Assembly (NCBI GenBank): GCA_020852815.1
Contig: JADZAN010000024.1
Span: 124,001-188,000 of the forward strand
Source of the DNA: Gemmatimonadaceae bacterium
Lineage (GTDB): Bacteria > Gemmatimonadota > Gemmatimonadetes > Gemmatimonadales > Gemmatimonadaceae
DNA: 64,000 bases
Direction of reading: 5' to 3'
A program made the translations under genes and the position numbers. This document shows, piece by piece, positions 27,267 to 29,581 of the stretch. Position 1 is the stretch's first letter. The number at the start of each line of letters is the position of its first letter. The notes under the pieces were generated by a model that saw nothing but the letters and a program-made list of their open reading frames with translations, was not told the origin of the DNA and did no database searches.

Positions 27267-27788
27267 GTGACCGACGCTGCGACGCCCGGCGCGGTGCGCA
27301 TCGTGCCGTTGCGCGATGCCGCCGACGCCGAGGCGTGCGCGCGGATCATGAGCACCACCGATCCCTGGATCACGCTGGGGCGCGACCATGCGCGCTGCCT
27401 GGCGGCGGTGCAGCTGCCGACGCACGAGGCGTGGGTGGCGCTGGACGCCGACGATGCGGTGGCGGGGTTCGTCCTGCTCGTCCTGCAGGGGGCCTTTATC
27501 GGCTACATCCGCAGCATCGCCGTGCGCGCCGACCTCCGTTCGCGGGGGGTGGGGCGGGCGTTGCTCGACTTCGCCGAGCGCCGGAGCCATCGCGAATCGC
27601 CTAACGTTTTCCTCTGCGTCTCGTCGTTCAACTCGCGGGCGCGCGCGCTGTACGAGCGCTACGGCTTCGCGCTGGTGGGGGAGCTGACGGACTTCGTGGT
27701 GGCGGGTCACTCGGAGTGGCTGATGCGGAAGAGCATCGCCCCGATCACCGGCTACACGCCACCGCCCGATTCCATCGGGGCACCCTGA
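27267..27788 (+). CDS. GNAT-family N-acetyltransferase
   Basis: 173 residues. The acetyl-CoA motif A is clear: IRSIAVRADLRSRGVGRALLDFAE, followed by VFLCVSSFNSRARALYERYGFALVGEL. The GTG start is preceded by GGAAG and lies ten bases after the coiled-coil gene, so the two may be co-transcribed. Substrate unknown. Confidence 0.92.
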   Translation: MTDAATPGAVRIVPLRDAADAEACARIMSTTDPWITLGRDHARCLAAVQLPTHEAWVALDADDAVAGFVLLVLQGAFIGYIRSIAVRADLRSRGVGRALLDFAERRSHRESPNVFLCVSSFNSRARALYERYGFALVGELTDFVVAGHSEWLMRKSIAPITGYTPPPDSIGAP

Positions 27789-27848
27789 ATCCCGAACGCT
27801 GCGTCGTGGTTTCCGGGACGGGCGATTGCGCGGCGGGGGGGCGCGCGC

Positions 27849-27919
27849 GGTGGGCGCGCGCGGTGGGCGCGCGCGGTGGGCGCGCGCGGTGGGCGCGCGC
27901 GGTGGGCGCGCGCGGTGAG
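27849..27919. repeat. 13-bp tandem array GGTGGGCGCGCGC
   Basis: Units begin at 27849, 27862, 27875, 27888, 27901 and 27914 (the last degenerate), an exact 13-bp period with almost no variation. Alternating CG runs could adopt Z-form DNA. Confidence 0.95.
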
Positions 27920-28311
27920 TGACGCTCGCGCGGCGAACGGTGCGTGCGCGATGGGTGGCGCGCGCCGCTAACTGCGCTCGCGTCGCCCTGTGGCGCCTGT
28001 TCCGGGTGGTTTGGCGGGGGCGGGGGCCGGGTGACGCCGGGGAGTCGCACCCGGGAGCCGGCCGGCGGCGACGGCCGAGACCGGCGCCAATCCGGCGTTA
28101 GGCCGGCGCCGCCCTCTCCCGCCCCCCAAACGCTCCCTGCCGGAATTGCAGCGGGCGGGCCTCCGCGAGGCAACCGTCAGACGGCCGTCAGACGGCCGGC
28201 GCGGCGTGCCGAGTGCCTGCCGGGTATCTCGCCAGGCTGCCAACTGCGGGAAGCGGGTGAGCGGAAGCGGGTGAGCGGAGGCGGGACGCCGGGAGGGGGA
28301 GCGCCCCTCGT

Positions 28312-28452
28312 CGTCAGGCACCCTCGTGAGGCGCCGCTGTGAGGCGCCGCTGTGACCCACGCTCGTAAGGCACCAGCGTCAGGCACCCCTCGTCAGGCAC
28401 CCACGTCAGGCACGCCTCGTCAGGCACCCGCGTGAGGCACCCCGCGTCAGGC
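28312..28452. repeat. CGTNAGGC tandem array, 13-14 bp period
   Basis: Copies of CGTNAGGC (or one-base variants) begin at 28312, 28325, 28338, 28351, 28364, 28377, 28391, 28404, 28418, 28431 and 28445. N is C, G or A. Spacer bases are mostly ACCC-like. More scattered copies in both orientations follow at about 28456, 28483, 28523, 28539 and 28552. Confidence 0.93.
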
Positions 28453-28584
28453 GGTGCCTGACAAGTGCTGCTCCCGGTGGGGCGTCAGGCGTTCCGGAAT
28501 ACGCGAGTTTGTGACGGGGGCGGCCTAACGGTAGTCCTGCCTTACGCGGCGCGTGAGGCAGGGGGGGCGGTTTCGCCCATTTGG

Positions 28585-28593
28585 TGGTATACT
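28585..28593 (+). promoter_or_regulatory. possible extended -10 promoter of the AP2-like gene
   Basis: TGGTATACT matches the extended -10 form TGnTATAnT and is one of very few AT-rich hexamers in this spacer. No good -35 box is seen. It would start a transcript with a leader of about 140 bases ahead of the gene. Confidence 0.35.
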
Positions 28594-28739
28594 AGGCGCG
28601 CCCGCCGCTCCGGCAGTTGCCGATAGCCGTTTCCTTGACAGGTTCTTCGGCAGTTGTCTCGGGCGTTCCCGGCACCTGGTTCAGTCCCACGTCGTTGACC
28701 GTCGCTCGTCAGGCGCCGGCAACCCAGCCCCAGATCCAC

Positions 28740-29033
28740 ATGGCAGCGAAGAAGGCACCCAAGAAGGCCGCAGCGAAGAAGGCGCCGGCCAAGGCGGCCA
28801 GGAAGCCGGCCGCAAAGCGGAAGAGTGGCGCCACCTCCGTCCCCGGGATCAGCCGCATCGACCAGGAGTCGACGCGGACGCACGGGTACTTCGTCCGCGT
28901 TGGCTACCATCGCACGAAGGAAGGGGCCTGGCGCCCCAAGCACCGCGCGTTCTTCGGCGACGCCGGTCACGGCGGCAAGGAGAAGGCGTTCAAGGCCGCG
29001 GTGAAGTGGCTCAAGGACGCGCAGAAGAAGTAG
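28740..29033 (+). CDS. AP2-like DNA-binding protein with histone H1-like lysine/alanine tail
   Basis: 97 residues. Residues 1-28 are a Lys/Ala/Pro tail (MAAKKAPKKAAAKKAPAKAARKP) like the tails of H1-type histones and Hc1/AlgP-type bacterial proteins. Residues 37-95 form a compact domain: ISRIDQESTRTHGYFVRVGY, then RAFFGDAGHGGKEKAFKAAVKWLKDA. This matches the bacterial AP2-like pattern (IxRI-hGyxVRV-F-D-GGKxKAxxAA). Start chosen at the ATG where the tail begins; upstream codons read through the leader. Probably a small nucleoid-associated or regulatory DNA-binding protein. Confidence 0.78.
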   Translation: MAAKKAPKKAAAKKAPAKAARKPAAKRKSGATSVPGISRIDQESTRTHGYFVRVGYHRTKEGAWRPKHRAFFGDAGHGGKEKAFKAAVKWLKDAQKK

Positions 29034-29203
29034 TCGCGTCCGAGCTCCACACGTAGTCCCGCGCCGGCGCACCCCCCCATCGATCGGGCGGGATGCGCCG
29101 GCGGCGCCTTTGCCCCTCCTTCTCGCGGCGCCTTCACGCCCTACCGGCGGCGCAACGCGCCGCCATTCCCGTCCCCCCCCGGCGTTCGCTGGGGCAGGCT
29201 ATT

Positions 29204-29224
29204 CCCGTCTCCCGTCCCCCGTCC
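29204..29224. repeat. CCCGTCTCCCGTCCCCC array
   Basis: Reverse-complement form of the GACGGGAG family, seven bases before the GTG of the next gene. The bases just before it (TTCGCTGGGGCAGGC) are a half copy of the CCCCAGCGAAGGCTGGGG hairpin, showing the two repeat families can occur together. Confidence 0.75.
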
Positions 29225-29230
29225 GTAGTC

Positions 29231-29581
29231 GTGCCGCCCCTCTTCCGCACCGTCGCCCTCCTCGCGCTCTCCAACGTCTTCATGACGTTCGCCTGGTACG
29301 CGCATCTCAAGAACCTCTCCACGCGCGCCTGGTACATCGCCGCACTCGCCAGTTGGGGGATCGCGCTCTTCGAGTACCTGTTGCAGGTGCCGGCCAACCG
29401 CATCGGCTACACCGTCCTCTCCCTCCCGCAGCTCAAGATCATGCAGGAGGCCATCACCCTCGCGGTCTTCATTCCGTTCGCCGTGCTCTACATGAAGACC
29501 CCGCTCAAGCTCGACTACCTCTGGGCCGCCCTGTGCATCCTCGGCGCCGTCTACTTCATGTTCCGCGCGCCAACTGCCTAA
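29231..29581 (+). CDS. DUF486 family membrane protein
   Basis: 116 residues with four transmembrane helices (VALLALSNVFMTFAWYAHL, AWYIAALASWGIALFEYLL, EAITLAVFIPFAVLYM, LDYLWAALCILGAVYFMF). The segments FMTFAWYAHLK, QVPANRIGY and QLKIMQEAITL are the DUF486 signatures, and the length fits the family. It has the look of a half drug/metabolite transporter. GTG start chosen by family length. The stop codon TAA lies in the word GCCTAACG. Confidence 0.9.
   Translation: MPPLFRTVALLALSNVFMTFAWYAHLKNLSTRAWYIAALASWGIALFEYLLQVPANRIGYTVLSLPQLKIMQEAITLAVFIPFAVLYMKTPLKLDYLWAALCILGAVYFMFRAPTA

Follow-up and report, generated by a model that had tools for sequence, protein, structure and literature searches.

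A small Gemmatimonadota protein with a predicted AP2-like fold and a basic tail, and an octamer that may be its DNA target

A short open reading frame in the 64,000-nucleotide stretch of Gemmatimonadaceae DNA analysed here (the window) encodes 97 residues, MAAKKAPKKAAAKKAPAKAARKPAAKRKSGATSVPGISRIDQESTRTHGYFVRVGYHRTKEGAWRPKHRAFFGDAGHGGKEKAFKAAVKWLKDAQKK, on the chromosome of a soil bacterium of the Gemmatimonadota. A previous sequence-only reading had described the product as an AP2-like domain joined to a histone H1-like tail, had named the octamer array beside the gene as its possible target, and had called for a structure prediction. AP2 domains are best known from plant and apicomplexan regulators, and to our knowledge the roles of bacterial AP2 domains are largely untested. 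The locus raises the question of whether this frame specifies a genuine DNA-binding protein and, if so, which DNA it would read.

Homologs of the frame were detected at E <= 0.001 in 15 of 60 related genomes, in 13 of these at E < 1e-17, and sampling across the phylum recovered the protein in 32 of 395 genomes. Comparing the domain codons with those of two congeners revealed 16 synonymous and 3 non-synonymous changes in one case and 19 and 1 in the other, and the block around the start codon, CATGGCAG, is the best-conserved block of the upstream alignment. The matches in related genomes, the mostly synonymous change and the conserved start together indicate that the frame is a real gene and not a chance one. 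Searching with the family alignment assigned the named relatives to the Gemmatimonadetes and farther ones to the Chloroflexi and one Gracilibacteria MAG. No relatives were found in the virus, phage and plasmid collections searched, where PHROGs returned noise only; searches of Pfam, NCBIfam and PDB sequences with the protein or its profiles gave nothing meaningful, and an Rfam search of positions 27700-29300 gave no family. The features of the locus are collected in Table 1.

Table 1. Features at and upstream of the gene for the 97-residue protein (positions in the window)
Feature	Position	Strand	Basis
97-aa protein, basic tail and AP2-like domain	28740..29033	+	ORF; conserved in Gemmatimonadota
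Lys/Ala/Pro-rich N-terminal tail, residues 1-35	28740..28844	+	composition; AlphaFold2 disorder
Predicted AP2-like domain, residues 36-97	28845..29030	+	AlphaFold2; VIA-align matches to AP2 proteins
CGTNAGGC octamer array, mostly CGTCAGGC, 13-14 bp spacing	28311..28452	+	octamer scan
Single octamer CGTCAGGC	28483..28490	+	
Conserved octamer, GCCTAACG on +, CGTTAGGC on -	28523..28530	-	conserved block, genera g1 and g29
Conserved octamer GCCTTACG, 28539-28546 (CGTAAGGC on -), facing CGTGAGGC, 28552-28559 (+)	28539..28559	.	
Putative -10 box TATACT	28588..28593	+	consensus match
Octamer CGTCAGGC shortly 5' of start codon	28707..28714	+	at -33 in three g1 genomes

AlphaFold2, supplied with 14 and then with 30 homologs, predicted strands at residues 37-42, 47-58 and 64-73 followed by a helix at residues 80-96. 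The domain, which begins with GISRID at residue 36, was also modelled alone and gave the elements E10-15, E20-31, E37-46 and H53-69 at a mean pLDDT of 83.5. This order of elements is that of the AP2/ERF fold, in which three antiparallel strands form a sheet packed against a C-terminal helix. VIA-align comparison found similarity to solved AP2 domains, its top rows being chains of the Toxoplasma gondii mitoribosome (Z 7.3-7.4) and then the AP2 domain of Plasmodium falciparum SIP2 (Z 6.5-6.7, 2.5-2.6 A over 58-59 residues); these scores, Z 6.5-7.4, are weak to middling in absolute terms. The AP2 domain of Arabidopsis WRINKLED1 scored Z 4.7 and was absent from the whole-protein run, unrelated folds scored about 4, and profilin reached 5.3 in the whole-protein run. 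Foldseek alone returned no significant fold match. The T. gondii mitoribosome holds four AP2-domain proteins (PMC11652630), and the matched chains are presumably these proteins. Since the Z-scores are middling and Foldseek was not significant, the sequence evidence matters for the AP2 assignment.

The 97-residue protein gave no match to Pfam PF00847 at the gathering cut-off. The same genome encodes a paralog (G000:C1:45375-45536, L025) with two AP2-like domains, 50% identical over the domain and without a long basic tail, which is kept in genera g1 and g29. The first domain of this paralog matched PF00847 at E 6e-4 and both domains together at E 1.6e-6 (28.7 bits against a gathering cut-off of 33.3), and the Chloroflexi and Gracilibacteria relatives exceed the cut-off in their second domain. 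On the strength of the predicted fold matches and of this chain of homology through the paralog and the Chloroflexi relatives, we accept with high confidence that the domain, as modelled, has an AP2-like fold. The structure prediction that had been called for thus bore the assignment out, with three strands, a helix and AP2 proteins as the best matches. Because the protein itself falls below the Pfam model, we call it AP2-like, or AP2-fold, and not a member of Pfam AP2. It has in common with the AP2/ERF family the predicted strand-strand-strand-helix fold, the matches to the PfSIP2 and WRINKLED1 domains and relatives that score with PF00847, whereas the signature GISRID...RTHGYFVRV...FFGD is peculiar to the bacterial family. 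The first domain of the paralog and of the Chloroflexi tandem AP2 proteins is homologous to it at about 35-50% identity; those proteins contain two domains and lack a polycationic tail of this kind, whereas here a single domain, with a loop insertion of ~6-7 residues separating strands 2 and 3, is joined to a tail.

Because chains of the mitoribosome are among the closest fold matches, and mtAP2 proteins bind the ends of rRNA (PMC11652630), we considered that the AP2 fold and basic tail might bind structured RNA and not DNA. The octamers described below, which lie at the gene's own promoter region and occur in both orientations in genes, point instead to DNA, and we judge RNA binding improbable.

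The tail, MAAKKAPKKAAAKKAPAKAARKPAAKRKSGATSVP, spans residues 1 to between 28 and 35. Residues 1-35 have a net charge of +12 and a composition of 94% K/R/A/P/S/T/G, and AlphaFold2 predicted residues 1-28 to be disordered (pLDDT < 50). All 37 relatives examined have basic tails, whose net charges add up to between +7 and +18 per protein; the tail is N-terminal in genera g1, g6, g12 and g29, and elsewhere it is split between the two ends or lies at the C-terminus. As a basic tail occurs at one or the other end of every relative, it looks functional, and the persistence of this property while place and sequence vary fits a disordered polycation, as in the tails of H1 or HupB. Histone H1 and mycobacterial HupB both carry disordered basic tails. 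The present protein resembles them in joining a disordered tail rich in Lys, Ala and Pro to a small DNA-binding domain, but differs in that this domain is AP2-like instead of HU or winged helix and in that the position of the tail is variable. The histone H1-like character proposed for the Lys/Ala/Pro tail agrees with its charge and with its occurrence across the relatives.

Inspection of the DNA preceding the gene revealed 14 CGTNAGGC octamers within 450 bp, the highest number upstream of any of the 296 predicted genes of the contig, the next genes having 5 and 2; the window as a whole contains 66, against an expectation of 15.5 +/- 3.9. Tandem Repeats Finder described the array as a 13/27-bp unit. 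The array had been placed next to the gene, and this adjacency stands, but it is not merely next to it, as it sits upstream in the promoter region. Clusters of at least 3 octamers are confined to a limited number of loci in G000 (the host genome), G002 and G007, and in each of these genomes one lies at the AP2-tail gene; the genes adjoining the other octamer arrays are of no common type. When nine upstream sequences from four genera were aligned, GCCTTACG was the best-conserved 8-mer after the start codon (0.96), and GGCCTAAC, also an octamer copy, was among the next-best blocks (0.86). In six of the nine regions, a TATACT hexamer precedes the ATG by 95-152 bp and lies downstream of the conserved octamers. 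These four genera form one rpoB clade, so the conservation is by descent, and in more distant genera with the protein, such as g34 and g47, the region upstream of the gene contains no octamers. A separate perfect 13-bp tandem repeat, GGGCGCGCGCGGT, occurs in 6.1 copies at 27839-27917, downstream of a GNAT gene.

The octamer is also a word of the genome at large. In the strict form CGTTAGGC it is the most over-represented 8-mer of the host genome (35x, about 1,965 copies), with 134 copies observed against 3.8 expected in 380 kb. The gene-level statistics refer to one 380-kb contig, whose genes were called by a simple purpose-written gene finder. On this contig, about three quarters of the CGTTAGGC copies lie inside genes and their flanks are not conserved. 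Since 76 of 100 genic copies are read in one preferred frame and orientation, xCG-TTA-GGC, 76 of the contig's 140 TTA codons fall within octamers. DNA separating divergent genes has 1 copy in 19.3 kb, whereas that separating convergent genes has 21 in 10.3 kb. The upstream array consists mainly of CGTCAGGC, whereas the strong genome-wide enrichment concerns CGTTAGGC only. Copies often overlap stop codons (TAG/TAA); in the window, copies lie for example at 29576, 30068, 31311 and 32245. In the literature searched, no paper names CGTTAGGC. Like DNA uptake sequences (PMC2346458) and cyanobacterial HIP1 (PMC4390886), it is a short word present in thousands of copies, both genic and intergenic, but it is not palindromic and is here tied to a candidate DNA-binding protein.

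This distribution bears on whether the protein acts more narrowly, as an autoregulated transcription factor dedicated to a small regulon, its tail only raising affinity and having no nucleoid role. The clustering and conservation of octamers at its own promoter region would suit such a factor, and the rarity of CGTTAGGC in divergent promoter regions leaves few other promoters as targets. A small regulon would nevertheless explain neither the dispersed copies, some 2,000 in number, nor why protein and octamer occur together, and the array loci elsewhere share no gene type; we regard this account as possible but rather unlikely.

The octamer contains a GTTRRRY core, its GTTAGGC fitting that of integron attC sites, and a protein serving integron cassettes was therefore weighed. 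Integron integrases are widespread in the genomes examined, and on short contigs of G036 (C43, C80 and C95) and G266 (C14, C63 and C78) the CGTTAGGC copies are co-oriented and ~500 bp apart, resembling cassette arrays. Integrases are also present, however, in the octamer-poor genomes G004, G014, G020, G021 and G024, and the copies in G000 are dispersed and mostly genic. The attC assignment was rejected when the 135 CGTTAGGC sites of the 380-kb contig yielded only 2 inverted neighbours within 300 bp and proved not to form paired cores. Because integrases occur in octamer-poor genomes and the dispersed sites are unpaired, we consider a link to integrons very improbable.

Comparison across genomes showed that protein and octamer tend to occur together. 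In each of the family's 18 genomes with the protein, the ratio of CGTNAGGC to its reversed control was at least 1.78, and strict CGTTAGGC numbers about 700 to 3,750 copies in the protein-bearing genera, nearly all others having 50 or fewer. All eight genera of the family with the protein are octamer-rich, compared with 3 of the 27 without it (Fisher p 7e-6, uncorrected for ancestry), and of two sister genomes, G022 has the protein and 3,411 copies, whereas G016 has no protein and 34 copies. Protein-bearing genomes of the sister family f2 are also higher (p 6e-4, uncorrected), a difference owed to g47 and g60. Of the 7 independent changes in the protein on the rpoB tree, the octamer matches only about 3, with typically none in the opposite direction; a tree-corrected sign test was consistent in direction and not significant, the independent changes being too few. 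Three genera, g17 (G018), g22 (G023, G363 and G405) and g31 (G032), are octamer-rich, with 1,586 to 4,469 copies, and their genomes contain no detectable AP2-tail protein; near the DUF486 gene of G018, no lost or diverged copy of the AP2-tail gene was seen. The host genomes of the diverged relatives in g35, g43, g51, g54 and f3 g40 show no octamer enrichment, and a search of G266 for a different octamer suiting such relatives found none. We regard this co-occurrence as supportive of the link, not decisive.

Three further observations were made in these genomes. G242, which also belongs to g22, carries just 3 octamer copies. G018, octamer-rich and without the AP2 protein, carries tandem 15-bp repeats, CGTCAGGCGTCCCGC, at C2:1375572-1375969 and C3:431049-431191. 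In contig C36 of G016, the octamer-poor sister of G022, the words CAGCTTAG, CTTAGCTA and GTTCGTTA are over-represented.

That octamer-rich genomes without the protein exist could mean that the octamer is an uptake-type signal, or a similar genome word kept by some other process, and that the AP2 protein only regulates locally or owes its link with the octamer to shared ancestry. The thousands of mostly genic copies, the single preferred frame and orientation, the unconserved flanks and the enrichment between convergent genes are all reminiscent of uptake sequences, which have been reported to favour one in-frame orientation (PMC2346458). Such a signal would not explain why the contig's densest octamer cluster lies at the AP2-tail gene, nor why all protein-bearing genera in the family are octamer-rich, and we hold it to be a doubtful, though possible, explanation. 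The clustering upstream of the gene, the conservation and the co-occurrence lend indirect support to the earlier proposal of CGTNAGGC as target, against which stand the three octamer-rich genera without the protein. On these genomic patterns, the evidence suggests that the octamer word is what the protein binds.

What the analysis shows is the reading frame and its conservation, the predicted AP2 fold, the basic tails of all relatives, the clustered and conserved octamers upstream and a partial tendency of protein and octamer to share genomes; that this protein binds the octamer, that it regulates its own gene and any nucleoid role it may have are inferred. It has some of the properties expected of a nucleoid-associated protein, being small (97 aa), basic in its tails and chromosomal, with a predicted DNA-binding domain and no phage or plasmid match. 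The earlier idea of a new kind of nucleoid-associated protein stays a proposal, and three octamer-rich genera are without the protein. The AP2-fold sheet would provide sequence preference and the flexible polycationic tail non-specific DNA affinity, the most likely specific target being the octamer CGTNAGGC, with CGTTAGGC as its genome-wide form. By binding the octamer cluster in the promoter region of its gene, the protein would probably regulate its own expression, and it may also occupy some of the ~2,000 dispersed octamers as a sequence-anchored nucleoid-associated protein or global regulator. We see evenly balanced chances that it is such a small chromosomal, autoregulated and sequence-anchored DNA-binding protein, perhaps nucleoid-organising, with the octamer as its candidate site. 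A more far-reaching and distinctly tentative proposal is that the protein stands for a new class of nucleoid proteins: the AP2 fold would read a genome-wide octamer that thousands of genes and gene ends have come to contain, protein and word would co-evolve, and the histone-like coating tail would be anchored at defined sites. The locus offers a bacterial protein with a predicted AP2 fold and a histone-like tail, for which a concrete DNA target can be predicted; if the proposed binding is true, it would account for an unreported genome-wide octamer and would represent a compact natural case in which specific binding and non-specific DNA coating are combined.
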